A stretch of 64,000 nucleotides of DNA from Natribaculum luteum (GTDB taxonomy: Archaea; Halobacteriota; Halobacteria; Halobacteriales; Natrialbaceae): the NCBI RefSeq assembly GCF_023008545.1, contig NZ_CP095397.1, forward strand, positions 1,798,001-1,862,000, read 5' to 3'. The translations under genes were made by a program, and so were the position numbers. A model generated the notes under the pieces. It searched no databases. It worked only from the letters and a program-made list of their open reading frames with translations, and had not been told where the DNA came from. Every line of letters begins with the position of its first letter. Positions within the stretch are counted from its first letter, which is position 1. Below, in pieces: positions 3,629-19,516 of the stretch.

Positions 3629-3650
3629 CGGTCGTTGCTGACGGAGTTGT

Positions 3651-3660: not shown

Positions 3661-3825
3661 ACGAATCCTTGGGTGGTCGGTGAAAGTGAAAGTGGACGAC
3701 GGAATCGCTCTCGCGCCTGTTCTCGAGAGTGTCAGCCGCACTAGTCGAATTTCGGTGACTGTCGCGACAGGTGAAAGTAGTCCGGGCCGTGGGCTGTGAG
3801 CCGTGGGCCGATCGGTGCAATCGAG

Positions 3826-3939
3826 CGGGAGGTTTATCTCCCGCGGAATCGTGCGCTTGCATGCTTCCGTAACCTGGATACGGGAGCCAGGCGGGCCGGT
3901 GCCCCTAACACCGGGTCCGCATTCCTACTGAGGACCCGG
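3826..3939. ncRNA. Run of four consecutive stem-loops, candidate structured RNA or origin
   Basis: Four inverted repeats follow one another with no ORF across them: 3826-3831 with 3838-3843 (6 bp), 3873-3877 with 3887-3891 (5 bp), 3896-3901 with 3909-3914 (6 bp), and 3911-3918 with 3932-3939 (8 bp). The last two overlap, so they could be alternative structures. The block lies between the divergent int operon and the wHTH regulator gene. It could be a regulatory RNA, a replication structure, or chance in GC-rich DNA. Confidence 0.35.
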
Positions 3940-4119
3940 CCGGGTAGCGGCGGGTCCGTCTGACTTCCGTCACTGTGACCGAAACATCCCACTCACTTAT
4001 ACTTAACCGACCGTACGTTAATCTACAGAGTATCGTATGTTGCTACCAGTTAATCCAACCAGTATTGCTAAAATGCCAGCACAGCACGTACCAGTATGCG
4101 ACGACCGAGGGTATCGTGG

Positions 4120-4359
4120 ATGACACAAGCAGACGACCGAATCCTCGAGACCCTCGCCGATAGCGGTCTTATACTCTCTCCGCGCGTTTTGTCGGCTAAT
4201 ACGGACTATTCGAGACACTATCTGAGCACGCGACTCGGGAAGCTTCGCGATGCCGAACTCGTCGATCGCGTCGACGAAGGCCTCTATCAGATCACCGATC
4301 GAGGAAGGGCGTATCTCGAGGGCGACCTCGAGGCAGAGGTCTTAGAGAACAGCATTTAG
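4120..4359 (+). CDS. Winged-helix regulator (phiH1-repressor-like)
   Basis: A 79-residue wHTH protein resembling the phiH1-repressor family. The segments SPRVLSANTDYSRHYLSTRL and LRDAELVDRVDEGLYQITDRG give the recognition helix and the wing. I prefer ATG 4120 (MTQADDRIL, the usual family start). ATG 4096 is in frame and has an AT-rich TATA-like stretch about 25 nt upstream, so it is a serious alternative. It is divergent from the int operon, the usual place for a lysogeny regulator, which makes a repressor role likely but unproven. Confidence 0.8.
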   Translation: MTQADDRILETLADSGLILSPRVLSANTDYSRHYLSTRLGKLRDAELVDRVDEGLYQITDRGRAYLEGDLEAEVLENSI

Positions 4360-4461
4360 CGGTTTATTGAATCCACCACGATAAGTACAAAAGAACGTTC
4401 GTATCGCATTCCATTTTAATCACACTGGTACTTTTTTGTACCTACATTCTAACAATATCAC

Positions 4462-4875
4462 ATGCCAGAATGTGCCCGCTGTGGAGACTTCACGGATAAC
4501 AAACCATCTGGCCAGTACAACTATTGTGACGTATGCTTAGATCGGTTCGCAGCGATTGAGGCTAACGGTGTTGTGATTGAGCAGTCTGATGAACAAGATG
4601 GGTATCAGATCCTTGTGACAGCCCCAGACAGCGAATACAACGGTGGCACTGAACCGTCACAGACGGAGGCACTAGCCAGAGGAAAGTACATTGCAGACAA
4701 CGAGAACGTCGATGCAGTATTCAAATATAGTCACACTGGATCAATCTGGGAATTAGATGAGTTTCTCAAAGAACATCCAGATATTCGACAGGATGTCCAC
4801 GAACGTCTGAGACGTGTTCCAGAACGTCTTCCATCTTCGCGTTCCATTCTTGGCCGTATCCGAGATTTGTTTTAA
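4462..4875 (+). CDS. Zinc-ribbon protein of unknown function, low-GC cargo
   Basis: 137 residues. The N-terminus has two CxxC pairs (CARC and CDVC) that form a zinc ribbon in about residues 4-27. A middle domain follows (YQILVTAPD...ALARGKYIADN) and the protein ends in a basic tail. A TTTTTTG element 21-30 nt upstream of the ATG supports a leaderless start. Base composition is clearly poorer in GC than the structural genes, suggesting recent acquisition as cargo. Function is unknown. Confidence 0.75.
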   Translation: MPECARCGDFTDNKPSGQYNYCDVCLDRFAAIEANGVVIEQSDEQDGYQILVTAPDSEYNGGTEPSQTEALARGKYIADNENVDAVFKYSHTGSIWELDEFLKEHPDIRQDVHERLRRVPERLPSSRSILGRIRDLF

Positions 4876-4890
4876 ATCGGATGATAGAAC

Positions 4891-5724
4891 TCACTCAGAT
4901 TCTTCAGCTGCGATTCGGTGTTCTGGAAGGTGCCCGAGCGACCGAGACGCGTCTGCCGAGATCGTCACCGACTCCTCACCGACCGTCACCGGCCCATCGG
5001 CGACAGATCGAATCAACGCCGCGAGTTCTTCGCGGTAGGAACGCGGCCGTTCTTCGATAATCTGTATCGACGCGCTCGCCGGATCGGGATAGGCACGGTT
5101 CGACAGATAACAGTGAACGAATAGCTCTCGGACGTCTCGAGGTGCCTCGTCGAGATACCAGGGTAACGAGAACTCCTCGAGTTTCGACTTCTTCCCGAGC
5201 GGTGCACCGAGCACGTACAACACCCGCCCAAGGATCGCCCCGTCTTCGCCGGGTCGGATAACCGGACCGCGATCGTCGTCGGCCTCGTCGTGCACCGTGT
5301 ATCCGACGTCGGCCAGCTCGAGCGCGTCGATCACGTGCGAGTTGAACCCGCGCTCGTTCAGGACGAACAGCGGTTGCCAGTTCTGCTGATTGATCGACCC
5401 GCCGGAATAGACGTTCGCGACGAGCGCGTTCAACGCGGTGAAGGTGTCGTCGTCGTAGGTGACCTCGAGCCAGCCGTGCTCGCGTGCCGCCCGGAGCCCC
5501 GCGACGACGTTGGGCGTCTTCTCGTAGTCCACCCACGACCGAACGCGACCGACGGGTAACTCGAGCGCGTTCGCGATTGCCGTGTACCCCTCGTCCGGGT
5601 TGTCGATGCGATAGGCTGCCACGCGACGGTACTGCTTGACAGCCGTCCAGGCGTCGTCGTAGGCCCCGCCGTCGTAGGTGCGCGCGAGGTCGCGTTCCTC
5701 GAGTAACGACTCGTCTCGATCCAT
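4891..5724 (-). CDS. HTH protein with degenerate LAGLIDADG domain
   Basis: 277 residues from ATG 5724 (a GTG at 5754 would add 10 residues; positions below count from that longer start). Residues about 30-80 look like a helix-turn-helix (YTAIANALELPVGRVRSWV). The rest follows the LAGLIDADG homing-endonuclease pattern: first helix LNALVANVYSGGSI (108-121), linker LGAPLGKKSK, then second helix ELFVHCYLSNRAY (210-222). The catalytic acid of each LAGLIDADG motif is replaced (Gly and Asn), so cleavage is unlikely. It may be a DNA-binding regulator derived from such an enzyme, as WhiA is in bacteria. It ends convergently with the zinc-ribbon gene. Confidence 0.7.
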   Translation of the reverse strand: MDRDESLLEERDLARTYDGGAYDDAWTAVKQYRRVAAYRIDNPDEGYTAIANALELPVGRVRSWVDYEKTPNVVAGLRAAREHGWLEVTYDDDTFTALNALVANVYSGGSINQQNWQPLFVLNERGFNSHVIDALELADVGYTVHDEADDDRGPVIRPGEDGAILGRVLYVLGAPLGKKSKLEEFSLPWYLDEAPRDVRELFVHCYLSNRAYPDPASASIQIIEERPRSYREELAALIRSVADGPVTVGEESVTISADASRSLGHLPEHRIAAEESE

Positions 5725-5754
5725 AGGTGGAGGTGAGAGTGATTGGTCAAACAC

Positions 5755-6035
5755 CTATCGCTTTGGCGAAGTTAGAGCAAAATCGCAAGACGGCGTAGGT
5801 TCAAGGGGCCGCTGTAGGGTAGATAGCGTTCGCTGATTATCACATCTGAAAGTCCTATCAATTCAATTGACTGTCAGCTACCTTTAACTATATATGGCCG
5901 TAGTTACGTGGGAACTACCAGCGCCAAGCCGGACGTCGGAAAGCGCGCTGGGATGGTATTGCTACCCAATCCCCCTACGCGCGTTCGGTGGTTCCACACC
6001 ACCGTTCATAATCTTTCCGCCGTTCGCAGGGTGCT
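5755..6035. other. Intergenic region with the pilin promoter
   Basis: No convincing ORF. A TATA-like CATAATCTT at about 6007-6015 lies some 25 nt before the pilin ATG at 6036. Starting at about 5890 the sequence is AT-rich. The left half should contain the promoter of the leftward gene. Confidence 0.4.
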
Positions 6036-6614
6036 ATGGTAAATATGGATCTAAAGAAATACAGATCGAAGTTGATCGGAAGTAAAGAGGAACGAGCAGT
6101 CTCACCCGTGATCGGCGTGATTCTGATGGTCGCGATCACGGTGATTCTTGCGGCTGTAATTGCGGCGTTCGTTCTTGATATTGGTAACAATATGGGTGAA
6201 CCAGCGCCCACTACTGCAGCTGAAATAGATATGAACTCTGATTGGCAGCCAGACTCTTCTGGCACAACTCCCGACGCTGAGCTATTCTATCTGAGTCATT
6301 CATCAGGGGACTCTATTGCTAATGGCAACGTGAAAGTCATTCTTCGTGATAGTGATGGTGGTGAAATTGCGTCATTAGATGCTACCGATTCTGATACCGT
6401 GGGTGGCTCAGCTAGTTCTGACGAAACGACGATTGAAACCGAACTAAATGATGATTTCGGTGCAGGTGCTACCCTTACCGTGAGTGTTAGTCACACCGGC
6501 TCGGGTGACGGGGTAAACCTCTACTCGGATCTTGATGGCGAAGTAGAGGTCCAATTGGTTGATTCTGCATCTGATACTACAGTCACCACAGCAACCTTCG
6601 AGACTGACCCCTAG
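6036..6614 (+). CDS. Archaeal type IV pilin-like protein
   Basis: 192 residues. The N-terminus is an archaeal class III signal: a basic leader ending KEERA, then the conserved VSPVIGVILMVAITVILAAV hydrophobic helix (about 22-45) and an Asp/Thr/Ser-rich secreted domain. PibD-type peptidase would cleave before the helix, and the product would join a surface pilus. It is a host-type gene inside a provirus, with lower GC than its neighbours, so it is probably cargo that alters adhesion of the lysogen or receptor exposure. No pilus ATPase or platform gene is nearby, so it would depend on host machinery. Confidence 0.88.
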   Translation: MVNMDLKKYRSKLIGSKEERAVSPVIGVILMVAITVILAAVIAAFVLDIGNNMGEPAPTTAAEIDMNSDWQPDSSGTTPDAELFYLSHSSGDSIANGNVKVILRDSDGGEIASLDATDSDTVGGSASSDETTIETELNDDFGAGATLTVSVSHTGSGDGVNLYSDLDGEVEVQLVDSASDTTVTTATFETDP

Positions 6615-6700
6615 AAGCTGATACCCATCCCTCATTTGTTATTTTAATAATCAACCAGAGGTATCTACACAAATCTATCGTATTAGATATTTCTCTACCG

Positions 6701-6955
6701 TCATCTACTTTCAATCGTTGTGCAATATCGAAGTTTAATCACTGATGTATTCGAAATTCCTTGGATCGTTTTTGGATCGTACTCTCCTCGAGTGTCCTGA
6801 ATATCCTCTTCGCTCTCGAGCAAATGAGTTAACGCCGCGTCGATTACCACACTCACCGGCGAGTCGTCGTACTAGTCGGCGGCGACGATCGCGCTCGCCT
6901 GCTCGATTTTACGCTGTCGTTCGTCGGTGAGCTTCAGACTGGTGCCTTCTATGAC
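6701..6955 (-). pseudogene. Broken copy of the small ribbon-helix-like gene at 7604-7864
   Basis: The minus-strand translation aligns along its whole length with the intact gene: GTSLKLTDERQRKIEQAS, then an in-frame TAG where the intact copy has Glu, then YDDSPVSVVIDAALTHLLES, QNTR-like and NTSVIKLRYC segments. The start codon is also lost (GTC ATA GAA GGC in place of ATG ACC AAA CGC). The copies have the same orientation and flank the gene at 7036-7578, suggesting a duplication or recombination event that brought that gene in. Confidence 0.85.
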
Positions 6956-7035
6956 GTCCTTGTAAGTAGCTAATCCCCAGTTCAGATAGTCATAGAAAAA
7001 GACAAATTCTATCACTTATATCTGGGAATGTAACT

Positions 7036-7578
7036 ATGACGTTATTACAAGCGCAACAGAAAACACTTGCATCCTATCTCGCCAATGGAGAGTCGGCGAT
7101 CACTGCGTCTACCGAGGGATCAGTCACATACCTTCTAACTGATCGAAGATTTATCACGTATCGTGAGGACGACGACAGAACAATCTCAGTTACATCTCAG
7201 TTTTTGGATAATTTGGGTGGGGTACGTATCCGAAAAGAAGAGGGAAACAATTTCAATACCGACAGTCTAGCAGTCGGATTGATTTCACTCTTGACCGGTG
7301 TTGTCACCTTAGCTCTTCAAGGACTGATGCCAGGAGGACTCTCTGAAATGTTCCTCTTGATTGGTGTTGCTGGGGTTCTCATCGGTGTAATTGCACTCGT
7401 ATATGTCTTTGATACTGAAGATGATCAGATATCTATCCAATTGCGGACTCCAGAGGGAGAGGTTGTCGAATCACTACAACTGAATGAGGATTCTATGGAA
7501 TTTGCTGAGGCCGTCTCAAAGGCTGCAAGCAACACTCATACGCCAGACGAGGAGCACGTCAAAACAGTGTCAGCCTAA
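7036..7578 (+). CDS. PH-like membrane protein of unknown function
   Basis: 180 residues. The first 60 resemble the start of bacterial PH-like domains (SVTYLLTDRRFITYRED). Two membrane helices follow at about 76-95 and 105-122, then a C-terminal domain (YVFDTEDDQISIQLRTPEGE) that could be a second PH-like half. It is AT-rich relative to the window, has a TATA-like stretch about 20 nt upstream, and sits between two copies of an unrelated small gene. It looks like horizontally acquired cargo. Role unknown. Confidence 0.75.
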   Translation: MTLLQAQQKTLASYLANGESAITASTEGSVTYLLTDRRFITYREDDDRTISVTSQFLDNLGGVRIRKEEGNNFNTDSLAVGLISLLTGVVTLALQGLMPGGLSEMFLLIGVAGVLIGVIALVYVFDTEDDQISIQLRTPEGEVVESLQLNEDSMEFAEAVSKAASNTHTPDEEHVKTVSA

Positions 7579-7603
7579 CGTTCTGATTTCAAATACCATT
7601 TTC

Positions 7604-7864
7604 CTATCTCCACTTACTCACAACGGAAGTCCGGTAGCGAAGACCGATTACCGAGGTGTTTGCTACCTTTTGAATCGTCTCGGGATCGACCTCGCCTCGA
7701 GCGTCCTGGATGTTCTGTTCACTCTCGAGTAGATGCGTCAAGGCGGCGTCGATCACGACGGACATCGGCGGGTCGTCGTACTCATCTGCGGCGACGATCG
7801 AGCTCGCCTGCTCGAGCTTTCGCTGTCGTTCGTCGGTGAGCTTCAGGCTGGTTCGCTTGGTCAT
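7604..7864 (-). CDS. Small conserved haloarchaeal protein (DUF7386-like, RHH-like)
   Basis: 86 residues starting MTKRTSLKLTDERQRKLEQA, then a helical segment VVIDAALTHLLESEQN. The short beta strand followed by two helices is the ribbon-helix-helix pattern of small DNA-binding or antitoxin-like proteins. This is the intact partner of the pseudogene at 6701-6955. No toxin gene is adjacent, so an antitoxin role is not supported. Confidence 0.75.
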   Translation of the reverse strand: MTKRTSLKLTDERQRKLEQASSIVAADEYDDPPMSVVIDAALTHLLESEQNIQDARGEVDPETIQKVANTSVIGLRYRTSVVSKWR

Positions 7865-8108
7865 GGTTTAAACGAGTGTATGCACGGGGGGTCGATTCGC
7901 GTCGGTCGTGGGTGACCGACCGGTCTGTTCTTTAAGTGTGGGGGTCGGGGTGTGGCGTGATCGGCGCGGGTGCCGGTCGGATCGAGTTCGATTCTATGCA
8001 CTCGAGCGGCCCATTGCCCACGGCAGGGTGCATACATCGAGGATCGCGTATACATCTGAGCGCAACCCCAGGGGGTCCGATCTGAGAACCCCGTTCCACG
8101 ACTCTCGA

Positions 8109-8387
8109 TCACGCTTCCGATTCACCCCTAGTATCGGACATCTCGAGTTCTTGGATTCGCTCGTTGATCCGACAGGCGACGAGTTTCACGCCCACGACGA
8201 GTAGAACGATCGGGCCGACCGTCGCGATCACCGACGGGACCTCGAGCGCGATCGCGATTGCGAGTAGCGCGACCGCCGGAGTGATCGCGACAGCCACCGC
8301 TCGAAGCTTCATTCCCGATCGGCTCGCGTGCGGTTCACGGGGATCGTCGCCTCGAATCACAAGTTTGTCGACAATGGTCTCTATCAT
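8109..8387 (-). CDS. Small two-helix membrane protein
   Basis: 92 residues with two hydrophobic helices (VAVAITPAVALLAIAIAL and VIATVGPIVLLVVGVKLVA) and charged ends. It overlaps the upstream 43-residue gene by 4 nt and is last in a five-gene leftward operon of tiny proteins divergent from the structural genes. Small membrane proteins are common in pleolipovirus genomes. No family recognised. Confidence 0.7.
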   Translation of the reverse strand: MIETIVDKLVIRGDDPREPHASRSGMKLRAVAVAITPAVALLAIAIALEVPSVIATVGPIVLLVVGVKLVACRINERIQELEMSDTRGESEA

Positions 8388-8515
8388 CGGTCCGATTCGT
8401 CCCCCTTCTCGGTCACCTCGAGTCGGTCGACCGACTCGTGACGATCGTCACACCAGCGGGTGAGACAGCGGCCACCGATTTTCTCGAGTCCGCACGTCTC
8501 GCAGACGTCGACCAT
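8384..8515 (-). CDS. 43-residue zinc-finger protein
   Basis: Sequence starts MVDVCETCGLEKIGGRC and continues to RWCDDRH: four cysteines in CxxC...C...C spacing plus a His, so a small zinc finger. The stop overlaps the ATG of the next gene (ATGA) and the start lies 3 nt after the stop of the previous gene, so translation is coupled. Possibly a small viral regulator. Confidence 0.68.
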   Translation of the reverse strand: MVDVCETCGLEKIGGRCLTRWCDDRHESVDRLEVTEKGDESDR

Positions 8516-8518
8516 GTC

Positions 8519-8692
8519 TCATTCACCCTCCAAATCGGCCGGGTGTGGCGCGTACTGTCGGTCTCGAGGATACCCCGTCTGGCACCACACACAGAGCAGA
8601 TACGTCTCATCGTCGTCCGTTCCGGGACGCATGAGCATCTTCACCTTCTCGGGATCGGCGTCGTCGCCACACTCGTCACAGGTCACCGTCAT
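8519..8692 (-). CDS. 57-residue zinc-ribbon protein
   Basis: Begins MTVTCDECGDDADPEKV and carries a second pair CVWC about 30 residues later: a canonical two-CxxC zinc ribbon. It overlaps the upstream gene by 4 nt. It belongs to the leftward early-type operon of tiny genes. Confidence 0.72.
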   Translation of the reverse strand: MTVTCDECGDDADPEKVKMLMRPGTDDDETYLLCVWCQTGYPRDRQYAPHPADLEGE

Positions 8693-8907
8693 GGCTCACC
8701 ACCGTCCGACACCCTGACGCTCTCGCTCGAGTCGAGTCGGGCGAGTTCTCGAGCGTGCTCGAGGTCGTCGGCTTCCTCGAGGAGCTGGGCGATCGCCTCC
8801 TGGACGATCGCCGGCAGCCGAGTGCGGAGTTCGATCGCACGCATCGCTTCCCGCTCGAGTTCGCGACGTCGCTCCCGTCTGGCTTCCTGGAGGACGTCGT
8901 CGATCAC
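8689..8907 (-). CDS. 72-residue charged helical protein
   Basis: Starts with GTG at 8907 overlapping the upstream stop (GTGA). Apart from the ends it is almost entirely charged helix (VLQEARRERRRELEREAMRA, then LLEEADDLEHARELARL), compatible with a coiled coil. The same frame stays open further upstream to 9105, but that part is antisense to the AbrB-like gene. Function unknown. Confidence 0.65.
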   Translation of the reverse strand: MIDDVLQEARRERRRELEREAMRAIELRTRLPAIVQEAIAQLLEEADDLEHARELARLDSSESVRVSDGGEP

Positions 8908-9089
8908 GCGTCGATCCCCTCGACTAACTCGAGCGTCCACTGGCCGTCGTCGACGTGGCGAATGTGGATGTGGTGTTCGCCGTCGATCTCGCCGTTCTCG
9001 TCGAGGAGTCCCTCGAGGCGAAGATCGTCTTTCGGCAGGGTGACGCCTGCCGAGTTCTTGTCTAACTGTCGGAGTTTGTTCAACGCCAT
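8904..9089 (-). CDS. AbrB-like DNA-binding protein
   Basis: 61 residues from ATG 9089. The segment KNSAGVTLPKDDLRLEGLL has the swapped-hairpin AbrB/SpoVT signature (GVTLPK), and the C-terminus HHIHIRHVDDGQWTLELV gives further strands. A TTTATA box at 9116-9121 (minus strand) is about 29 nt upstream, so the transcript is probably leaderless. First gene of the leftward operon and divergent from the structural operon, it is a good candidate for the switch between the two. Confidence 0.75.
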   Translation of the reverse strand: MALNKLRQLDKNSAGVTLPKDDLRLEGLLDENGEIDGEHHIHIRHVDDGQWTLELVEGIDA

Positions 9090-9185
9090 GCAGCCAGGCG
9101 GGCAACCCGCCTTGGTATAAAGTTTGCTGAGCCTATTTTTTGCTGACCTTTTGGAGCGGGCGGGTCGACCGCTCGAGCGTTGCAC
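9090..9185. promoter_or_regulatory. Divergent promoter between early-type and structural operons
   Basis: Minus strand: TTTATA at 9116-9121, 27-32 nt before ATG 9089. Plus strand: an AT-rich CCTATTTTTTG at about 9132-9142, 45-55 nt before ATG 9186, longer than the usual leaderless distance, so the structural transcript may have a short leader. Confidence 0.55.
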
Positions 9186-9608
9186 ATGGCAACCGCAAAC
9201 CTATTCGCTGGAATGAAGAAACACAAGGGCGTCGACTTCATCGACGCCGTACTCGCACCACTGTTCGTGGCTGCGACGTTGAGTCTGTCCGGACTCGGGA
9301 CGATCGGCCTGGACAACCCGATCACGTTCTACCTGAGCGACGTGCTCTACAGCGCGTCGGGAACGGAAATCACCTGGGGCTTCGTCTTCTCGATGATCGC
9401 CCTCGGGGCGGCCTGGTTCAGTAACGAGGCTCGCGACTTCTCGGACTTCTCGCAGGAACAGGCGGCGATTGTCGGCGCGATGGTGATCCTCAACCTGTTC
9501 TCGGCGATCGTCCCGGCCGTCTCGAGCGCCCTCGAGTCCTACTGGTTCGCGGGTGTGTTCCTGCTGTTCCTGAACGGGGCGGGCTACTACCTGATCGCGT
9601 ACTACTGA
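9186..9608 (+). CDS. Pleolipovirus VP3-like internal membrane protein
   Basis: 140 residues with four hydrophobic segments (about 20-40, 55-72, 88-108 and 115-135). Size, number of helices, and place just before the spike module match the VP3-like internal membrane proteins of pleolipoviruses, which line the vesicle-like virion. I chose ATG 9186; a TTG two codons upstream is in frame. First gene of a rightward operon with very tight spacing that ends at 16380. Confidence 0.82.
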
Positions 9609-9619
9609 CGAGGTTCACA

Positions 9620-10357
9620 ATGAATTTTTCAAACGCCACAACGACGGTTGTAGTCTTCGCGCTCGTCGCGATCGCGCTCGCATCGATCGGTGCGACCGCG
9701 GCGACCACGGAGATGGCCAACGAGACGGTCACCTTCGACAACGAGAGCAATCTCACAGTCGACGTGACGTGGAACGAGTCGATCACCGATCCTGCGAACG
9801 CGACGGCCGACGTCGACGTCTACGGCGAAGACGCCTTCCTGGTCGACGGCGACGACGTGACGAACTCGGCACTCAACGCCACCACTCTGAACGGGACGAT
9901 CGCAGAGTTCGACAGTGCGAACGTGACGGCGAACACGACCTACACCGTCGATCTGAACGCGTCGACGGCCGGAACGGTCGACGTCCCGTCTGCCGACATT
10001 GCCGACGACGGGACGGTTGACCTCTCGAATTACGGAACCATCACGACCGACGACGAGATTCTGTCGGTGACCGCATCGGCTGATCTGGTGGCCCAGAACG
10101 TACTCTCGGCCGATCCGGGTAACACGACGTCGGTCACGTTCGACGAATCGAACGGTCTCGTCGACGGCGACGAATACCGCGTGCTCGTCACGGCCGACGA
10201 CCTCGAGGCGGACAGCGTCACGATCGACGACGGCACGTTCGGCGGCATCATCGGCGGGTCGGACGGATCGGGGTCGGCACTTGTCGGCCTGGTCGTGATC
10301 GTCGGCCTGGTCGCGGGAGGTGCCTGGCTCTCGCGTGATAACGGAGGTCGGTCGTAG
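9620..10357 (+). CDS. Secreted, C-terminally anchored virion-type protein
   Basis: 245 residues: Sec signal peptide (about 7-28, ending ATAAT), an Asn/Thr/Asp-rich ectodomain with many N-x-S/T sites, a Gly/Ser linker and a C-terminal membrane helix (ALVGLVVIVGLVAGGAWL). The stop overlaps the GTG of the spike gene. It is probably a second surface protein made with the spike. No family recognised by sequence. Confidence 0.75.
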   Translation: MNFSNATTTVVVFALVAIALASIGATAATTEMANETVTFDNESNLTVDVTWNESITDPANATADVDVYGEDAFLVDGDDVTNSALNATTLNGTIAEFDSANVTANTTYTVDLNASTAGTVDVPSADIADDGTVDLSNYGTITTDDEILSVTASADLVAQNVLSADPGNTTSVTFDESNGLVDGDEYRVLVTADDLEADSVTIDDGTFGGIIGGSDGSGSALVGLVVIVGLVAGGAWLSRDNGGRS

Positions 10358-13233
10358 TGTCGTCCGCGGCTGACGCTCCAGATCGGAACGGCGGCCCACA
10401 GCCCACAGCCCACAGGTTCGAGTCGGGATGGCTGACTCGACGAGAGGCGATGAAAACGCTCGCGATCGCAGCCGGAGCCTCCGCTACGGGGGTAACGTTT
10501 GGCTCCGAATCCGCGACCGCGGCAGAGGGTCTCGTTGACGGCGTCGTCTCGGCGATCACGGGCGCGGCGTCGACGCCTGGTGTCCAGTATGCCGTCGACA
10601 CTGCTGCATGGGGTGTCGGTGGCGTCGTCGGGTTGGTCGCCGTCCGATCGCTTCGCGATTCGATAAACGAGAGTCCGTCGGCAGATCAGGCAATCCTGCA
10701 CAACCTGTGCACGTCCGAAGCGGAGAGTCTCACTACGCACGAAATCGTCTTCGGCAACCGGCTGAAAGACGCGCCACCAGTAGCGAACCTCGAGGGTCGC
10801 CACGGGATCGCGAGTGCGTGGGAAGACGGCAAATCCGCGAGCACGGCCTACGACCGCGCTATGCAGCGGATTCGGCAGTATTACGAACTCCCCGAGTTCA
10901 ACCACTGGCACGTCACGGCCAAGTCGTTGCTGCAACTGGGGTTCGCTGCTGGTGCGGCGCAAGATACCGGCGACGACGCGTGGATCGCGGCGACCGGGAC
11001 AGACGGCTCGGGTAACACAGTCCAGTTCCGATTCCGTGGAACCACCCAGGAGATCGACCTCACGTTGCACGACGGCACGGCGATCTCGAACGTCAACCCC
11101 GACGAGGCTGACGACGTGCTCGGTGATCTCGAGTCGGCGGTGCTCGAGGTTCCCGAAGTACACCTTCGGGACACCACGAACGGAACCGACCTCGAGACGG
11201 TGCCGGTGATCTCGCAGGACGTCGTCGATTCGTGGGATTCGGCGAACGAGACGCTGACGTACACACTGAGCGATTCGACGACGGTGACGCTGGACAGCAA
11301 ATTCTCGATCCCGAACGTCGGTTCCGACCTCTCGTCTGCGGTCGTGTGGAACCCGTTCGAGACGTTCCGGCTCCTCGACGAAATTCACTCACAGAGTGAC
11401 ACCGTCACCGGCAACTACAGCCAGGCGTTCGTCGAGGACGTCTACGCGGAGCTGGACGCTGGCAACATCACGCCACAGCAGGTCCGCTCCCCGGAAGGCA
11501 TGACTCACTTCCTCTCGGGGACGGACGACCCGACGAATGCTCGTTTCAGGGTCGCTATGCTCCAGCAACTCGGAATGGAGCAACCCGACTTTTCGCTCGT
11601 CTCGGAGATGGACGTCTCGTGGTCGGGTGCAACGGGTCGATGGGTCGATCCGGACCCGTCGATCTCGGATCGACACGTCCACCCCGACGAGTTCGTCGCG
11701 GACACATCGTATACGGGCGTGCTGTTCGGTAGTGATCTGCCGCCTGATGGCTTCAAATCTGGCGGCTCCTATCACGTCGGTCCCGTCGGATTCCTCGCCT
11801 ACGAGAACGACAACGAGGTGCGTGCGATCGATCTAGTCACGCAAGAAGAACAGTGGCGGTATTCGACCGGACAGCAGATTGCCGCGGTGGCTGCCGATAG
11901 CCTCGGCGAAACGCTGTTCATCGGAATGGCTGACTCGGTTGCAGCAGTCGATGCGACGAACGGGTCCGAGCTGTGGTCGATCGACTACGCGACCGGCTCG
12001 AGCAGTGGCGTCGAAGCGATGACGCTCTCGCCCGACGAGAGCACGCTGTACGTGACCGGATACGGCGATACGCTCGCGCTCTCCGTTTCGGACGGGTCGA
12101 CCGAGTGGAGCCACACCCCGTCGAACTACGGCTATTCGATCACGGTCACGCCCGACGGGTCGACCGTCGTCGTCGGCACGAATACGCCGGACGTGGCTGG
12201 AATCGACGCGACCGATGGTACCGAGTTGTGGCTCAACACGTCGTCGCCGGTCTCGAACGTATACGGCGCTGCGGCGGCACCCGACGGAAGTGCTGTCTAC
12301 ATCGGCGACGACGGTGTCGTCGCTGCGCTCGATCCGTCGGACGGGTCTGAACTGTCGACCTATACCGGTCTGACCGACTATGCGCGTGTACTGACGACCG
12401 GTCCCGATGGAACGGTCTACGTCTCGAACGATAACGGAGACTACGCACTCGATCCGTCGGATTGGTCTGTCGTCTGGAACACGAACACCGCGGATATCAT
12501 GCCTCGGTCGATCAGTGTGTCTTCGGACGGAAGCGAGGTGTACGTCTCGAACGGCAACGCCGAGATGTACGCCCTCGACACGTCCGATGGGAGTCAGAAG
12601 TGGCTGTTCAATCCCCTCGGTGACGTGAACAACACGGTGTACCACGCGATAACCCGGACTACAGATCCCGTTGATGGGATCGCCGGTCGGGCGTTGATGT
12701 TCGACGAACCGTCCGGGTCTGAAATCACGATGGCGACGGGCGTGCTCGAGGTCGTGGAGATGCGCGACGCTGACGGCGCGACGATCACGCACGTCGACGA
12801 CCAGACGATCGCCGACCTCGAGGCGCTGGCTGGTACGCCGGACTCGATCGAGACGATCGTCTCTGAGATGGACCAGTTCGATAGCGTCGACGACATCAAG
12901 TACACGACGCACGTCTACGACATCCTCGAGTTCTACGGCGTCGAGGCGACCGTCGGTGAGTCCGATTCTGACGACGTGACCGTCAACGACCCGGATTATC
13001 AACGCCCGGAGTACGACACGTACGACTCGACGGAGTTCGCGAACTATCTCGACGAACTCGAGACGTATCTCGAGCAGCTCGAGGCAGAAGACGACACCAG
13101 TGGAACGCCACTGTTCGGCGGTGGCGACTGGTTCGACGGAGGGGGTGGTCTCGTCGGCCTGGCGATTATCGGTGCCGTCATCATGGCAATCGTCGGGATC
13201 GTGACCGATCTACTCCCGTTCGGAGGTAGGTGA
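10357..13233 (+). CDS. Pleolipovirus spike (VP4-like) with inserted seven-repeat beta-propeller
   Basis: 958 residues. The start is GTG 10357, overlapping the preceding TAG, and gives an intact Tat signal (TRREAMK at about 27-33, then a hydrophobic stretch). The N-terminal part (about 60-440) has the spike-like helix pattern (ANLEGRHGIASAWEDGKSAS). About residues 476-750 hold seven repeats of some 41 residues with the PQQ-propeller signature A-[ILV]-D-x-x-[DN]-G-x-x-x-W near 489, 529, 573, 614, 656, 697 and 738. The tail is Asp/Glu/Tyr-rich, then a Gly-rich linker and a membrane anchor (VGLAIIGAVIMAIVGIV). Spikes mediate receptor binding and membrane fusion; the propeller is probably a receptor- or glycan-binding addition. 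Most pleolipovirus spikes are much shorter. Confidence 0.85.
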   Translation: MSSAADAPDRNGGPQPTAHRFESGWLTRREAMKTLAIAAGASATGVTFGSESATAAEGLVDGVVSAITGAASTPGVQYAVDTAAWGVGGVVGLVAVRSLRDSINESPSADQAILHNLCTSEAESLTTHEIVFGNRLKDAPPVANLEGRHGIASAWEDGKSASTAYDRAMQRIRQYYELPEFNHWHVTAKSLLQLGFAAGAAQDTGDDAWIAATGTDGSGNTVQFRFRGTTQEIDLTLHDGTAISNVNPDEADDVLGDLESAVLEVPEVHLRDTTNGTDLETVPVISQDVVDSWDSANETLTYTLSDSTTVTLDSKFSIPNVGSDLSSAVVWNPFETFRLLDEIHSQSDTVTGNYSQAFVEDVYAELDAGNITPQQVRSPEGMTHFLSGTDDPTNARFRVAMLQQLGMEQPDFSLVSEMDVSWSGATGRWVDPDPSISDRHVHPDEFVADTSYTGVLFGSDLPPDGFKSGGSYHVGPVGFLAYENDNEVRAIDLVTQEEQWRYSTGQQIAAVAADSLGETLFIGMADSVAAVDATNGSELWSIDYATGSSSGVEAMTLSPDESTLYVTGYGDTLALSVSDGSTEWSHTPSNYGYSITVTPDGSTVVVGTNTPDVAGIDATDGTELWLNTSSPVSNVYGAAAAPDGSAVYIGDDGVVAALDPSDGSELSTYTGLTDYARVLTTGPDGTVYVSNDNGDYALDPSDWSVVWNTNTADIMPRSISVSSDGSEVYVSNGNAEMYALDTSDGSQKWLFNPLGDVNNTVYHAITRTTDPVDGIAGRALMFDEPSGSEITMATGVLEVVEMRDADGATITHVDDQTIADLEALAGTPDSIETIVSEMDQFDSVDDIKYTTHVYDILEFYGVEATVGESDSDDVTVNDPDYQRPEYDTYDSTEFANYLDELETYLEQLEAEDDTSGTPLFGGGDWFDGGGGLVGLAIIGAVIMAIVGIVTDLLPFGGR

Positions 13234-13234
13234 G

Positions 13235-13849
13235 ATGAAGCGACTCAGTATCTTTGCGACGGTGGTAGCGGTGACGCTGGCGATGAGCATGGGCGCGATC
13301 GCGACGCAACCGGTGGCAGCACAGGCACAGGAGAACTCGAGCGACGAGGTGTACCCTGGCGATCAGGGACCGGTGAGTCCCGACGTCCAGGAGAACGCGA
13401 CGGACGAACCGACCGTCGCCCCATCCGAAGACTACCTGCAGCAGATCGACAACGAGACGCGAATCGTCGACTGGGAGTACCGGCCTGGCATGTTCACGAT
13501 CGAGATCGAAGCCGACTCGGCGACGCAGATCTCGATGACCGAAGCCGGTGACTTCGAGGAAGGGACGGGCACGTTCAACTACAAAGAGACCGGCCTCCAG
13601 GAGGGAACCAACACGGTCACGATGCCGGTCACCGATCGGGAAGGGGCCGGCGTCGCGATCGCGACGCGCGCCAGCCTCGAGCAGGGAAGTGGCGCGTTCG
13701 TCTCGGTCGGCCAGGTCGAGAAGAACCCGTTCCGTCACTTCGGCGGTGAAAGCGGCCTGTTCACGGGCGTGATCATGACGATCGTCTCGGCAGCGCTCGG
13801 CGCAGCCTACGTGATCCGTTCGGAAGACAACGGGGTGATCGAGGCGTGA
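13235..13849 (+). CDS. Secreted anchored protein of the virion module
   Basis: 204 residues: Sec signal peptide (about 5-28, ending PVAAQAQ), an acidic ectodomain, then a C-terminal membrane helix (GLFTGVIMTIVSAALGAAYVI). It starts 1 nt after the spike stop and overlaps the next gene by 4 nt. Position corresponds to the ORF6/7 region of pleolipoviruses. Function unknown, probably virion-associated or used in assembly. Confidence 0.75.
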   Translation: MKRLSIFATVVAVTLAMSMGAIATQPVAAQAQENSSDEVYPGDQGPVSPDVQENATDEPTVAPSEDYLQQIDNETRIVDWEYRPGMFTIEIEADSATQISMTEAGDFEEGTGTFNYKETGLQEGTNTVTMPVTDREGAGVAIATRASLEQGSGAFVSVGQVEKNPFRHFGGESGLFTGVIMTIVSAALGAAYVIRSEDNGVIEA

Positions 13850-14652
13850 GCGACAAGACGAGCGGGACGTTCGGCGGCTGGGCCGACCGGCTGACGTACG
13901 TCGCAGCTGAAGGCCAGTTCCTCGTCTTCGGGCTCGCCGTTTCGCTCGGCGCGGCGCTCATCTGGTTCCGTCCGGCGATCCCCGGCGTGCCACCGATCGC
14001 GAAGGGCATCTTCGCCGCGATGCTCCTCCTCGGGCCGCCACTCCTCGGGCTGTTCGTGACCGGTGCTCGCAAGCTCAGAAACCGGAACATGGTCGACGTC
14101 TACCACATCAACGGCGTCGACGACACCCGCCGGAAGCTCTACGTCGCACCCGAGGTGTGGAACGAGAAGGTCGTCGAGGGACCGTCACCGTACGTGTGCA
14201 ACGACGGCGACGCCTACGAGGTTCGCGAGTTTACCTACCACGAGGACACCGGCCGACTCGTCGTTCGTGGGTGCTACATGTCCCAGCTGGCCGACTCGAA
14301 ACTCGTCACCACCAAGGCCATGCTCGAGGACGTCCACGGCGACCTCGTCGACGCCTTCCTCGAGTTCAACCGACTCCGTGGCCGGATCTCGAAGATGGGG
14401 CTCCAGATTCAACGCGACGTCGTCAACGAGGAAGCCGAAGCCGACGAACGCGGGTTGATGAACCCACGGACGGCAGTGAAGGATCGCTTCGAGGCGGCGA
14501 AAGAAGACGTCGAGCAGCGGGACGTCGACGAGATCAAGGACGTCACCCAGTACGTCGAGGAGTACACCGACGAGCACGGACCACGAACGCCGGAACCGGC
14601 TGAGGGATCGACGACCACCCAGACGGCAACCGATGGAGGGACGAACCGATGA
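13846..14652 (+). CDS. Membrane protein of the pleolipovirus core module
   Basis: 268 residues. GTG start in the GTGA overlap. Two membrane helices in about 25-70 (FLVFGLAVSLGAALIW and IFAAMLLLGPPLLGLFV) are followed by a cytoplasmic domain and a helical, acidic C-terminus (about 165-250). It lies directly before the NTPase, where pleolipoviruses have a conserved membrane protein. It may couple the NTPase to the membrane. Confidence 0.75.
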   Translation: MSDKTSGTFGGWADRLTYVAAEGQFLVFGLAVSLGAALIWFRPAIPGVPPIAKGIFAAMLLLGPPLLGLFVTGARKLRNRNMVDVYHINGVDDTRRKLYVAPEVWNEKVVEGPSPYVCNDGDAYEVREFTYHEDTGRLVVRGCYMSQLADSKLVTTKAMLEDVHGDLVDAFLEFNRLRGRISKMGLQIQRDVVNEEAEADERGLMNPRTAVKDRFEAAKEDVEQRDVDEIKDVTQYVEEYTDEHGPRTPEPAEGSTTTQTATDGGTNR

Positions 14653-15821
14653 GCGACGAGCAAGACAACTACACGGTCGGTGGCTTTCGCGAGTACCAGG
14701 ACAACAACCACGAGCGCGATCCCGACGAGGTACTTCCGCACTCGGGGTTCGTTCGCGACGAACAGATCGATCGGCAGCTGGCGGTCCGAGCGATCCACCA
14801 CGACCCTGACCGATGGAACTCGAAGCCAGCAGCGGACTACCTCTCGGTCCAGAAGAACCGGGACATCCTCAAGGCCGAGGGTGGCCACACGGCACGCCAG
14901 GCACTCGAGAACGGCGACACGGTGACGCTGAAACACTACATCGGCGACCCGAGTCAGCAGGCCGACCTCGCGGGCATCAAGGCCGTCACTCGCCTCCAGG
15001 AGATCGTCGCGGGTCCGGCTCCGGTGATCGTCGTGCTCGGGGAGATGGGTGCCGGCAAGTCGGACTTCGCCGGTCTCCTGGGACAGCTGCGCGAGCGATG
15101 GGTCGACGGCGATCTCCTCGTCGGATCGAACATCCGAACGCTCGAGCGAAACGACGACTGGGTGCGAGACAACGGCGACGTCGAAGACGGCTGGATTCCA
15201 CACTACCCGCTCCTCGAGGAGTGGGTAGCCCAGGACGGCGACCCGGTCGAGAACGCCCAACGCCCAAAGCTCTTCATCGGCGACGAGTTCTCGAGTGCCG
15301 CCAGCGGGACCGGCGAAGACGGTCACCTCGTCCGGAAGTTGATGGGACCACTCGTGTTCAAGATCCGCAAGTACGGCGGAGCGTTGATCTACATCGGCCA
15401 CGACGAGAGTTCGATCCACCCGATGCTGTGGCGCGTCGGCACGATCATCAAGAAGGTCAGCAAGAAGCGGGCGGTCGTCGCCGATCGCATCTCGGGTGGG
15501 AAACTCGTCGACGTCGATCCCCGGCCGCTCGAGGGCATTCCACCGACCGACTGGTCGATGGCCACCGAGGAGGCGAGCGACTGGTCCTGGCGGGCACCCG
15601 AGGGCGAAGACGTCGACGAGGAACCACTCGAGAAAGACGACGTCAAGCAGGTAGCCATGTGGACGATCAAGGCGTGCGTCGACGAGGGGATGACGCCCAA
15701 CCAGGCGTCGAAGTACGTCCCGTTCAGCAACACGACCGTCTACAACTGGTTGGAAGACTACGACGAGGGCGACCGTGAGAAGCGCCAGTGGGTTGAAACC
15801 GTCGAGCAGGTGATCGCATGA
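14649..15821 (+). CDS. VP8-like P-loop NTPase with C-terminal HTH
   Basis: 390 residues. Walker A is GEMGAGKS (about 133-140) and a Walker B-like strand is LFIGDEFSS (about 210). Near the C-terminus MTPNQASKYVPFSNTTVYNWL forms a helix-turn-helix. Pleolipoviruses encode a conserved NTPase (VP8 of HRPV-1) after the spike genes, and this fits in place and size. Its role in the family is unsettled; assembly or genome handling is the usual suggestion, and the HTH favours contact with DNA. Confidence 0.82.
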   Translation: MSDEQDNYTVGGFREYQDNNHERDPDEVLPHSGFVRDEQIDRQLAVRAIHHDPDRWNSKPAADYLSVQKNRDILKAEGGHTARQALENGDTVTLKHYIGDPSQQADLAGIKAVTRLQEIVAGPAPVIVVLGEMGAGKSDFAGLLGQLRERWVDGDLLVGSNIRTLERNDDWVRDNGDVEDGWIPHYPLLEEWVAQDGDPVENAQRPKLFIGDEFSSAASGTGEDGHLVRKLMGPLVFKIRKYGGALIYIGHDESSIHPMLWRVGTIIKKVSKKRAVVADRISGGKLVDVDPRPLEGIPPTDWSMATEEASDWSWRAPEGEDVDEEPLEKDDVKQVAMWTIKACVDEGMTPNQASKYVPFSNTTVYNWLEDYDEGDREKRQWVETVEQVIA

Positions 15822-15988
15822 CGGCGTCGGGATTCCAACGTTCCAGTTTCAAGCACCCTCCCTTTAGAAAGGTTGCAGCCCACAGCGCACTTCGCTCCCT
15901 ATCGGGACCGAAGCGACCGATGGGCGAGCGGCGTTCCCAGCAGCGGAGGAGTATATATATCGGCGCGCGACGCGCGTGGTGTGCGTGA
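15818..15988 (+). CDS. Possible 56-residue basic protein linking NTPase and nuclease genes
   Basis: ATG overlaps the NTPase stop (ATGA) and its TGA overlaps the GTG of the next gene (GTGA), so the frame fills the gap exactly with coupled starts. The product is very basic (RPMGERRSQQRR...), unusual for a haloarchaeal protein, and has no recognised domain. The evidence is the tight overlap at both ends only. Confidence 0.45.
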   Translation: MTASGFQRSSFKHPPFRKVAAHSALRSLSGPKRPMGERRSQQRRSIYIGARRAWCA

Positions 15989-16380
15989 GTCGAACCCGAT
16001 CGCGGTCGAAGCGAGCGAACCACTTCGGCACGATCGTCGAGAAGCGCATGGCTGAGAAGCGTCGGTTCGACCTCGAGCGCAGCTCGTGGCACGACGCAAA
16101 GTTCGGCAACGGCACGCCCGTCGAGATCAAGAGCACGATGCTCGAGCACGCCGACGGCCAGCCCGGTAACTGGAAGGTCTACCGGAAGTACCACGAGAAG
16201 CTACGCCGTCACGACGGCTGGTACTGTTTCGTCGTCTACCGACCGCATGGACGATCGGGGCTGACGATTCTTCGCGATAAGATGGTTCGCTCGAGCGACC
16301 TCCCGCTGCTCCGGTGGCATGGTGGCGGCGATCACCGCGGAACCGAGCAGGCGAAGATCTCGATCGACTCGATTTTCTAA
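15985..16380 (+). CDS. PD-(D/E)XK nuclease-like protein
   Basis: 131 residues from GTG 15985. The core reads GTIVEKRMAE (early helix with Glu), DAKFGNGTPVEIKST (Asp, then E-x-K on the next strand) and WYCFVVYRP, the alpha-beta order of PD-(D/E)XK nucleases such as resolvases and restriction enzymes. Last gene of the structural operon; an inverted repeat 8 nt after the stop may terminate transcription. It could process viral DNA or act in defence against competing elements. Confidence 0.7.
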   Translation: MSRTRSRSKRANHFGTIVEKRMAEKRRFDLERSSWHDAKFGNGTPVEIKSTMLEHADGQPGNWKVYRKYHEKLRRHDGWYCFVVYRPHGRSGLTILRDKMVRSSDLPLLRWHGGGDHRGTEQAKISIDSIF

Positions 16381-16786
16381 TCAGCATCGACGGCGGTCTC
16401 AGTATCATATTTATACTCGCCGTCAGCCCTCCGTATACTCGTACACACGACCCCGAAATTCTAGTTTTTCGACTCACTGACCGGTCTATGTCGGCAAAAT
16501 CGATGAAACGTGTCTGTTAGTCAGAGAAGAACGGCGGCTCAAACGACGGCTCGATTTGAGATATGCACACGGCGAGTGGAGGTTCGTGTGCATATTCGGT
16601 GATCGAATTCTGCCAGCGTGCAACCCTGTGGGGAAGTAAAAGAAACCAATCAGATATTAGATCTGCAATGAATATCTAGTGGAAGAAAATCCTATTAAAT
16701 ATCTTTCCGGACCAAACATAAATATCAGCATCACTCACCTTATAGTAGCGCTTTACGCGCTAGCGCCTTAGGCGCAAAGTCCTCCG
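16381..16786. other. Non-coding region with two inverted repeats
   Basis: No supported ORF. A 7-bp inverted repeat (16389-16395 with 16418-16424) directly follows the nuclease stop and may be a terminator. A perfect 11-bp inverted repeat (ATATGCACACG at 16561-16571, complement at 16585-16595, 13-nt loop) stands alone and could be an operator or origin element. The stretch at about 16640-16740 is AT-rich. Confidence 0.5.
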
Positions 16787-16987
16787 ATGGCCTCGGGGGC
16801 AAGTAGCCAGGGAATGTTCGCGACAATCTCTGCCGAGTCTACCCCCGAAATCGGCGTCTACTGTGGCGCAATGTTCGGGATCTGCGGTGTTTGGTCGGGT
16901 ATCGGCCTCGCGGTTGTAGCTGGCCTGACCATTTCGCTCGCCTCTCTGCTGGCGTGGGTGTACGTCAGCAAACTCACTGCAGATTAA
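16787..16987 (+). CDS. Possible 66-residue small membrane protein
   Basis: MASGASSQGMFATISAES is followed by a short Cys-containing segment (VYCGAMFGICGVWSG) and one long hydrophobic helix (IGLAVVAGLTISLASLLAWVYV). The composition is protein-like and the helix convincing, but no family is recognised. It stands alone in the sparse region, on the same strand as the structural operon, after an AT-rich stretch that could hold a promoter. Confidence 0.5.
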   Translation: MASGASSQGMFATISAESTPEIGVYCGAMFGICGVWSGIGLAVVAGLTISLASLLAWVYVSKLTAD

Positions 16988-17126
16988 GACCCCCAAGGCA
17001 CACGTCATACACCCCTAACACCGATTTTTCTTAGTCGGCCTCAAGTTCTGATCACTTACTTATTGAAAGGAAATGTTCGCTAGGAGCCGAGTCACCAGAC
17101 CCCTTTACAGGCGATGGCTAGTCGCC

Positions 17127-17255
17127 CTAGGCGTTCTGGGTGACCTTCTTCATTAGGTCAGATTCTATTTCACCTAGCTGTTGGCCGTCAAACCGAATTG
17201 CGACGTGGCTATAGCCGGTCTGACCGCCAACAATTACAGATACATGCTGAGCCAT
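17127..17255 (-). CDS. Possible 42-residue protein
   Basis: Reads MAQHVSVIVGGQTGYSHVAI, then RFDGQQLGEIESDLMKKVTQ and two more residues. The alternation suggests two beta strands and a helix, and the composition looks coding rather than random. An AT-rich AAATTAAC lies about 40 nt upstream. Nothing else supports it and no family is recognised. Confidence 0.4.
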   Translation of the reverse strand: MAQHVSVIVGGQTGYSHVAIRFDGQQLGEIESDLMKKVTQNA

Positions 17256-17851
17256 AATAAGACTGTGGTGTAGTACGAAGACGGAGCGGTTAATTTGGAT
17301 ATTTGGCCTTAGTCACGCGGGCAGCTGGAACCGACGATCGTCGATCCAATAGCGGCTAATCACCATGAGACCAACCAGGCAAATGTTGCTATTTTGCCCG
17401 TTTTCTAACCCCTCCTAACTCTACGTGACAACGCCGGTTGTCGAGGTACCGGCCCCTCCCACCACCTCGTTTCGTCCGTTCTCCCGTCCGGTTTCGGCCG
17501 ATTCGTCTTTCGACTAGCGCGGCGCGCGCTCTGCGCGCCGCGCAATTGCCCTACCCCCTTAGGGGCACCTACCGTAGGGGGACCCGGCAACCCCGGTGCG
17601 AAGGCCAACGTCTGAAACGGCCGATTTCGCGATGCACACACCGTGATTCTGCCGGTTCGTTTCCTCGAGCGAACCAGCGAAACTGGCCCAACGCCCACGG
17701 GATCGCTCCGCTTACACCCAGGTGAAAGTGAAATACACACCTGAAAATGAATGTGTCTGCGAAGAATGTAAGGATCACCGAGAGGAAGCCGCGAAAAGAA
17801 GTGCCGATCGCGAATGCTGTAGCTACTCGAGGGGCGAACCCGGAGGTGACG
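17256..17851. other. Sparse region between structural and replication modules
   Basis: About 600 bp without a supported gene, at the convergence of the rightward operon and the leftward replication gene. It contains the 11-bp GC hairpin at 17517-17543, followed by C/G-rich palindromic sequence (about 17548-17585) around CCCTTAGGGG. Candidate replication origin of the circular viral form, on position and structure only. Confidence 0.45.
17517..17543. terminator. Perfect 11-bp all-GC hairpin
   Basis: Arm 17517-17527 (GCGCGGCGCGC) is fully complementary to 17533-17543 across a 5-nt loop. It could be a transcription terminator or part of a replication origin; there is no adjacent T-run, which weakens the terminator reading. 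Confidence 0.45.
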
Positions 17852-19516
17852 TTACCGGAGTGGCGGCGGCACCTCGTCGACGCGCACCCGGACGTCGCGA
17901 TCGTCGAGCTGGTCGCGCTCGTAGAGGTACGCCACGTCGTGGATCGACGCGCTCAGTCGGGCCAGGTACTCGAAGCCGATTTCGTTCGCATCGTCCGTGC
18001 TCTCGTCGCGTTTGTCGTCGTCGGTGTCCGTCTGGTCGTCACCGTCTTCCTGCCGTTCCTCGCGGCGCTCGCGGCGTTCCTCGGCACGATCGTCCATGTC
18101 TTCCGGCGTGTCTTCCGGTCGGACCTCGCGAAGAATCTCGCGCGCTCGCTCCAGGACGACTCGCGAGACGAAGAACACCATCACGGGATTCCCTTCGCGC
18201 GTGACGACGCCTTCTTCAGCTAGTCGACGGACGTGGTAGCGAACCGTCGATCTCGCGAGTCCCGTGCGCTCGACGAGCGTGTCGTAGTTCGCACCGTCGT
18301 GCTCGGCGATGACGCGCAGGATGTCGTAGACGGCCGTCGTCGACTCCTTGAGCGCTTCGCGGTAGATGTCCGTCGCCAGATCCTCGTACCGGCGCTTCAG
18401 CATCTGCCGGCGGCCTGTCGGCCGCTCGAACTCCCACGGCGGTGCCTGCGGCCCATCGAAGAACCCGTCAGAGACGAGGTCCGATCGACCGATCCCGGCC
18501 CATCGTGCGTGCGTCGCGACGACCGCCCGGAGGTGCTCGAGGACGTCGTCCCATTCAGAGACGTGGGGGAGTTCGCCGCGGTCGACTCCGGCGTACGATG
18601 CCTCGAGTTTCGGATGGTGGAACGGATCGCTCGGTGGCTTCCGGTGCCACTGGTTCGCCTGGTAGATCTTCACCTCGGTGCTGTAGCGTTGTGGATCGAA
18701 CCCGAGGAGGTGCCACCGGTCGCTCTCGACGAGCGCCTCGAGCCAGCCCTCTTTCTGCCGTCGCTGGTGAGCATCGATCTCCGATTCGCCACCCCAGTCG
18801 ATGAGCTGTTTCGATTGCTCGAGGGTTTCGATCGCAGCTGCTTTCTTCCCGATCGAGAACCGGATGTGTGCCTCGGCTTTCGGAATCCGGCGGGCGTCGT
18901 CGACGCGATCGTCGAGGTCGACCGCGTCGCGTCCGTAGACAGCCCGGAGGGCATCGTACAACCGGCGTTCGATCTCGAAGGGACCTTCCGCCCAGGTCGT
19001 CCAGGCGAGCAACCGCGTTCCCTCGCCGTAGGGACACTCGAGGGAGTCACCGCTCTCGTAAACCATGTCCGTGAACTGGGGCATGATTTCGACGTGCAAC
19101 GCGAGTGCTGGCTTGTGTAACGGCCGTTCTCCGTCGTCGTCTTCTGGCCCCCATTCGCGAAGCTTCAGGTGGTGCTCGTAGTACGCTCGATAGTCGTCAC
19201 CGCGACCGGTACCGGCCTTCCATCGCGACGACGTGAGCACGAGCGCGTAGTCTCCTGAAGGCAACCAGTCTGCCTCGAAGTCGTCGACGGCGACGTACGG
19301 TTCGGCGTCGCGATCGCCGACGTGCTCACGCCAGTAGCCCAACGCTCGGTCGTACAACGTCCCGCGGTCGGCACTCCGATCGGCGTCGGGATCGTCGACG
19401 TCGGCGAAGTGGTTCATCACCGCGGCGCCGTGAGCGCGTGGCCGAGGGAAGGTGTCGGCTTCCGACTCGGTGACGTCGTCGAACTGCACCGGGTCGTCCG
19501 TCGCGTCGACACTCAT
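17852..19516 (-). CDS. Large wHTH protein, probable viral replication protein
   Basis: 554 residues from ATG 19516; the frame stays open to 19555, but that extension overlaps the upstream gene by 40 nt. The N-terminal two thirds is a conserved-looking domain without a known motif (YVAVDDFEADWLPSGDYALV, LHVEIMPQFTDMVYE). A winged helix lies at about 405-440 (YDTLVERTGLARSTVRYHVR), then a highly charged Arg/Glu/Asp helix (about 465-510). Betapleolipoviruses encode a wHTH replication-type protein on the strand opposite the structural genes, and this matches. It ends a six-gene operon with overlapping starts. Replication is inferred from position. Confidence 0.75.
   Translation of the reverse strand: MSVDATDDPVQFDDVTESEADTFPRPRAHGAAVMNHFADVDDPDADRSADRGTLYDRALGYWREHVGDRDAEPYVAVDDFEADWLPSGDYALVLTSSRWKAGTGRGDDYRAYYEHHLKLREWGPEDDDGERPLHKPALALHVEIMPQFTDMVYESGDSLECPYGEGTRLLAWTTWAEGPFEIERRLYDALRAVYGRDAVDLDDRVDDARRIPKAEAHIRFSIGKKAAAIETLEQSKQLIDWGGESEIDAHQRRQKEGWLEALVESDRWHLLGFDPQRYSTEVKIYQANQWHRKPPSDPFHHPKLEASYAGVDRGELPHVSEWDDVLEHLRAVVATHARWAGIGRSDLVSDGFFDGPQAPPWEFERPTGRRQMLKRRYEDLATDIYREALKESTTAVYDILRVIAEHDGANYDTLVERTGLARSTVRYHVRRLAEEGVVTREGNPVMVFFVSRVVLERAREILREVRPEDTPEDMDDRAEERRERREERQEDGDDQTDTDDDKRDESTDDANEIGFEYLARLSASIHDVAYLYERDQLDDRDVRVRVDEVPPPLR

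Follow-up and report, generated by a model that had tools for sequence, protein, structure and literature searches.

A pleolipovirus spike with a predicted seven-bladed beta-propeller in a loop of its C-terminal domain, exchanged as a cassette

The window analysed here, a stretch of 64,000 nucleotides from a haloarchaeal genome of 4.6 Mb (Natribaculum luteum), contains a complete provirus related to the isolated betapleolipovirus SNJ2. Its extent was set from matches to SNJ2 proteins, 14 of 25 of which are found collinearly from 2071 to 20547, and from a terminal repeat. The integrase and the core genes are present and the att repeats lie at a tRNA gene, which makes the element an SNJ2-type betapleolipovirus provirus. 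The following features are considered below.

1967-20725: complete SNJ2-type betapleolipovirus provirus, ~18.7 kb
1967-2001: left att repeat, CGTAGAACGTGACGTCTGCTGACGGGCGCGACGGG, an exact 35-bp match to 20691-20725
2050-3090, minus strand: integrase, 57% identical to SNJ2 gp01
9180-9608, plus strand: candidate VP3-like membrane protein, the gene preceding the spike module (phrog_3232, 6.7e-29)
9620-10357: protein of 245 aa, between the VP3-like gene and the spike
10357-13233, plus strand: spike protein of 958 aa, GTG start, frame open and intact
10357-11781, plus strand: spike residues 1-475, with Tat signal, N1 helical bundle, N2 and the first part of the C-terminal domain
11782-12660, plus strand: spike residues 476-768, predicted seven-bladed beta-propeller head, the exchanged cassette
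12661-13233, plus strand: spike residues 769-958, with the remaining C-terminal domain, stalk and transmembrane anchor
13235-13849, plus strand: ORF6-like core gene, homologue of SNJ2 gp14 (phrog_1938, 1.6e-53)
13846-14652, plus strand: ORF7-like core gene, homologue of SNJ2 gp15 (67%; phrog_3526, 2.3e-132)
14649-15821, plus strand: pleolipovirus ATPase, homologue of SNJ2 gp17 (73%; phrog_1979, 2.5e-146)
20691-20725: right att repeat, overlapping the 3' end of a tRNA-Arg gene (20713-20785, minus strand)

The pleolipovirus gene order of VP3-like protein, spike, ORF6-like protein, ORF7-like protein and ATPase is kept, with one additional ORF (9620-10357). The product of this ORF has a signal, an Ig-like part (weak BatD match) and a C-terminal hydrophobic segment, and is possibly a second envelope protein; a homologue lies beside six other spikes of the enlarged type found here (long spikes, described below). 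The VP3-like gene adjoins most long spikes and is 40-79% identical beside 15 of the others. Elsewhere in the provirus, an archaeal type IV pilin-like gene (6036-6614; Pilin_N, 2.2e-22) is related to SNJ2 gp10. Its relatives, present in two copies in some proviruses, are well conserved over their first 50-70 residues (often 65-86%) and usually not over the remainder.

An earlier note made from the sequence had described the 958-residue product as a pleolipovirus spike with a Tat signal, an N-terminal scaffold of helices, an acidic stalk and an anchor at the C-terminus, and our searches bear this out. The twin-arginine signal LTRREAMK, with its motif at residues 28-29, can be read from the spike sequence, as can a hydrophobic segment at about residues 932-952, where AlphaFold2 also predicts a helix. 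The spike matches phrog_2231 (1.8e-38) over residues 13-957, though that model has no room for the insert, and it is matched over residues 104-474 (E 7e-29) by SNJ2 VP13 (YP_010772536), which is annotated as a structural protein. In profile comparison, an alignment of 12 long spikes matched nine short SNJ2-type spikes (E 1e-69), and these short spikes in turn match the spikes of HHPV-1, HHPV-4, Harhisp1 and Hardyhisp2 over most of their length (2e-38), match HRPV VP5 (3.6e-12, probability 97.6) and retrieve the solved VP5 structure 6QGI (3.9e-6). The flanks of the insert, which the earlier note had wanted compared with viral and host proteins, thus match SNJ2 VP13 and, via profile, VP5 of HRPV-2 and HRPV-6. 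Homology to proven virion spikes therefore identifies the product of ORF 10357-13233 as a Pleolipoviridae spike (VP4/VP5-like). This identity rests on sequence and profile matches because AlphaFold2 modelled the flanks with low confidence, from a usable alignment of four sequences only. From our own reading of the profile alignments, the hinge between the N and C domains of VP5 falls near spike residue 366, which places the insert in the C-terminal domain and not in N2. The description of most pleolipovirus spikes as about half this size is roughly right, known isolates having ~530-610 aa.

A second, mostly helical insertion of ~65 residues lies between the C-terminal beta-domain and the stalk (12790-12993, spike residues 812-879). 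Long spikes of the close clade carry it, as does one further long spike (L092), whereas SNJ2 and all the other long spikes lack it.

The main insert gave a strong match to Pfam PQQ_2 (E 8.5e-24; 84.9 bits against a cut-off of 27.6), while PF01011 stayed under its cut-off (25.0 against 26.7 bits). AlphaFold2 placed exactly 28 strands, seven times four, in residues 477-766, both in the full-length model and in a model of the fragment 406-807. Confidence for the head was pLDDT ~55-90 at full length and ~70-97 in the fragment, where blocks of 80-97 cover most of the head; the beta-domain base beneath the head received no confident prediction in that fragment model. Compared by Foldseek, the model was closest to seven-bladed propellers, with target-normalised TM scores of 0.86 for 7bid (a seven-bladed design), 0.82 for 8era_C and 0.80 for 5yzv, and only ~0.55 for the eight-bladed BamB. 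Residues 476-768 are thus predicted to form one seven-bladed propeller of the PQQ/WD type, probably a closed ring, as judged from these scores. The propeller proposed in the earlier note, with seven repeats at about residues 476-750, is upheld by PQQ_2, by the 28 strands and by Foldseek, and full-length structure prediction, which that note had named as a check, does contain it; its extent needs correcting, since the domain runs slightly longer, to 768. A search for recent blade amplification by residue autocorrelation detected only a weak periodicity of 40-42 residues.

PQQ-family repeats raise the question of whether the head is an enzyme or cofactor domain, PQQ-dependent or glycan-degrading for example, that opens the cell surface, and glycan-cutting propellers do exist in other viruses. 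PQQ dehydrogenases, however, have eight blades and a cofactor site, whereas seven blades are predicted here, PF01011 falls below its cut-off and no site is conserved. Across 17 heads, the only positions conserved at >=70% are the D, G and W of the blades and a few edge residues; with only scaffold residues in common, the heads share no active site and are probably no enzyme. We regard an enzymatic role as very improbable.

To place this spike among its relatives, the N-terminal flank was searched against 125 genomes of the family. Another 20 spikes, whose frames measure 883-1073 aa, were recovered in this way, and searching 391 genomes of the class with a profile gave three more long spikes from other families. 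This brings the long spikes to 24, mostly within one haloarchaeal family, taken to be Natrialbaceae from members with such spikes; their hosts include Natrinema thermotolerans, Natronorubrum halalkaliphilum and Natrialba asiatica. Single-sequence scans of genome and viral contigs gave no match to the spike, while alignment-based scans returned three named hosts and, in IMG/VR, no match. Many other spikes, with frames of 490-730 aa, are without the insert, as is the SNJ2 spike; the repeats are therefore not common to all betapleolipoviruses, the case in which the earlier note would have called the propeller not unusual.

The head is 296 +/- 10 aa long in all 24 long spikes. In the 21 that were aligned its junctions are identical, the head starting after a 'YxVG' strand and stopping before an 'xxMFD' strand, and at the same site ten short spikes have about six residues. 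The part that follows (residues 769-958 here) is conserved among long spikes and alignable with short ones. Twenty of the 24 exceed the PQQ_2 cut-off; L089 reached 27.3 bits against the cut-off of 27.6, and it and L093 are the weaker propeller matches. No propeller match was obtained, by Pfam or hhalign, for the heads of L092 (spike 2404-5322, minus strand) and L124 (spike 6836-9415, minus strand), which are either very diverged propellers or another fold; both have the usual length and occupy the same kind of slot. The long spikes form a lineage, and in the aligned members one and the same C-terminal-domain loop holds the insert.

An origin as an artefact, in which a decaying viral gene became fused to a host PQQ-repeat gene or the region was misassembled, might be suggested by the many PQQ-repeat genes of the host genome (33 matches). 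The chance of this is practically nil: 24 long open frames, from several host families, agree in head length and, for those aligned, in where the head is inserted; the att sites and core genes of the provirus are intact, and the best match to the head elsewhere in the host genome is just 35%. Intact relatives rule out gene fusion and misassembly alike.

Two further observations concern spikes outside this set. VP5 of HRPV-2 and HRPV-6 appears to carry ~95 extra residues one strand from the propeller loop (consensus by eye), so extra domains may generally be accommodated in this region of the C domain. Seven spike matches of equal score (L031-L037; 510.9 bits), all with the same two TGA stops, lie on short contigs in seven genomes of several genera, which looks like contamination common to these assemblies or a small element of wide distribution.

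We then compared head and flanks among the long spikes. Close relatives are ~45-98% identical in their flanks and ~15-30% in their heads, and within a close clade of 12 the median identity is 0.57 for N1, 0.32 for N2, 0.62 for the C helices and 0.22 for the head. In this clade the flank blocks correlate with one another pairwise (r 0.57-0.87), whereas head identity shows no correlation with flank identity (r -0.04 to 0.06). With one member, L083, removed, the head-flank correlations tested rise to a weak r 0.24-0.35, indicating that swaps are not constant.

Two pairs of proviruses are decisive for exchange. L082 and L083 share ~90% identical DNA over several kb on either side, with the head as the only stretch where homology breaks off. 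Their heads have a protein identity of 0.15 by multiple alignment, and a pairwise alignment covering 210 residues gives 0.30. Silent divergence between them climbs from 0.28 to 0.61 on nearing the head and is 0.73 inside it, which marks a tract brought in from elsewhere whose boundaries lie in the flanks. L090 and L091 have the opposite pattern, with a silent divergence of 0.03 in the head and 0.10-0.35 in the N-terminal half. One backbone can thus carry different heads and one head can be borne by different backbones, which supports the suggestion that the propeller is exchangeable as a unit. A search of the 391 genomes for a donor of the L083 head gave none, the best non-self match of comparable length being 27-33%, and no silent cassettes were detected elsewhere in the host genome, where the spike matched only itself and unrelated PQQ proteins.

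Alternatively, the heads might have diverged in place, very fast, through diversifying selection or blade shuffling. Propeller loops tolerate change, and the weak correlation between head and flank identity that persists without L083 counts in its favour. It does not account for the silent sites adjoining the head of L082 and L083, which have diverged as well, as in an imported tract, or for the nearly identical silent sites of the L090 and L091 heads beside a diverged N-terminal half. As judged from silent sites in both pairs, in-place divergence is largely refuted and improbable as a replacement for exchange, and it may act additionally. These nucleotide comparisons show movement of the head as a cassette.

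What the head does was considered in the light of the other variable part of the spike. N2, which has been proposed to be where HRPV spikes bind their receptor (PMC6381117, PMC10599561), is retained in the long spikes and is their second most variable part after the head. The HRPV-6 spike, which is monomeric and lies outside fusion classes I-III, mediates fusion (PMC6381117), and this fusion is specifically triggered by host S-layer extract and not by Haloferax volcanii extract (PMC8875312). Host recognition best explains why the spike ectodomain should present a variable surface on a scaffold that is constant and exchanged, and we infer that the head binds a host receptor. Because N2 is still present and variable, recognition may be shared between N2 and the head, and the head, which lies in the C-terminal half, is perhaps not the main or only receptor-binding part. 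The earlier proposal that the propeller separates attachment from fusion therefore goes further than the evidence.

The retention and variability of N2 also fit a different role, in which attachment stays with N2 and the propeller forms a variable outer layer, as a shield or a spacer, that protects from competing viruses, from host defences or from crowding by the S-layer. The large head of constant size, without any conserved surface residue, would suit this as well. A spacer alone, on the other hand, needs no wholesale replacement of sequence in nearly identical viruses, although a selected shield might, and we consider such a role unlikely but not negligible.

Taken together, these findings make it likely that this is a fusion spike bearing a seven-bladed propeller on a loop as an exchanged, variable scaffold for host recognition. 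The spike backbone (signal, N1 helical bundle, N2, C domain, stalk and anchor) would be inherited with the rest of the virus and would carry out fusion. The propeller, predicted to be closed and seven-bladed, sits in a loop of the C-terminal beta-domain and would be the scaffold for variable recognition; it is swapped as a cassette, probably when related viruses recombine within the conserved flanks. The head would then bind a component of the host surface, such as the S-layer or its glycans, and so help to set host specificity. On balance, we also favour a broader view, held less firmly, of a widespread haloarchaeal pleolipovirus lineage with a standard docking loop, in which interchangeable propellers are traded by recombination and host recognition shifts without altering the fusion machine.

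No earlier description of a propeller-bearing pleolipovirus spike was found in searches of open-access full text. One 'propeller-like' mention concerns the shape of a vertex in a different virus family. A 2023 survey of 184 pleolipovirus genomes describes variable N2 and C subdomains, in a text without a beta-propeller, and abnormally large spikes of the usual V-fold in a proposed Epsilon genus (PMC10599561). Searched against a phage collection, the propeller part weakly matched three unrelated phages and no pleolipovirus. The protein is a member of a known spike family bearing a new, modular domain. Receptor recognition and the triggering of fusion are open questions in pleolipoviruses, whose spike lies outside the known classes of fusion protein, and a discrete, well-folding, naturally exchanged putative recognition domain makes both directly testable.

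Among known systems, SNJ2 VP13 is the homologous spike in a provirus of the same type and gene order, with 27-28% identity in the N-terminal and middle parts; it differs in its length of 541 aa, in having about six residues in place of the propeller and in a Sec-like signal where the present spike has a Tat-type one. VP5 of HRPV-2 and HRPV-6 (PDB 6QGI), a V-shaped fusion protein with N1, N2 and C domains and an anchor (PMC6381117), matches the flanks at the level of a family profile, but its precursors of ~565-570 aa lack the propeller and its extra C subdomain is much smaller. Seven-bladed propellers of the PQQ/WD type share the repeat signature and, by prediction, the fold (target-normalised TM 0.86 to 7bid and 0.64 to 1L0Q, the YVTN propeller of an archaeal surface-layer protein), and differ in that the propeller here is inserted in a viral fusion protein and exchanged between viruses. 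Finally, in paramyxoviruses the attachment head of HN is a propeller, and in influenza HA and HEF a receptor domain is inserted in the fusion protein. The likeness to these proteins is one of working only, with no homology, and HN is a separate, six-bladed protein, unlike the seven-bladed head inserted in this spike; the long spikes would offer an archaeal parallel to the modular attachment and fusion of eukaryotic enveloped viruses.
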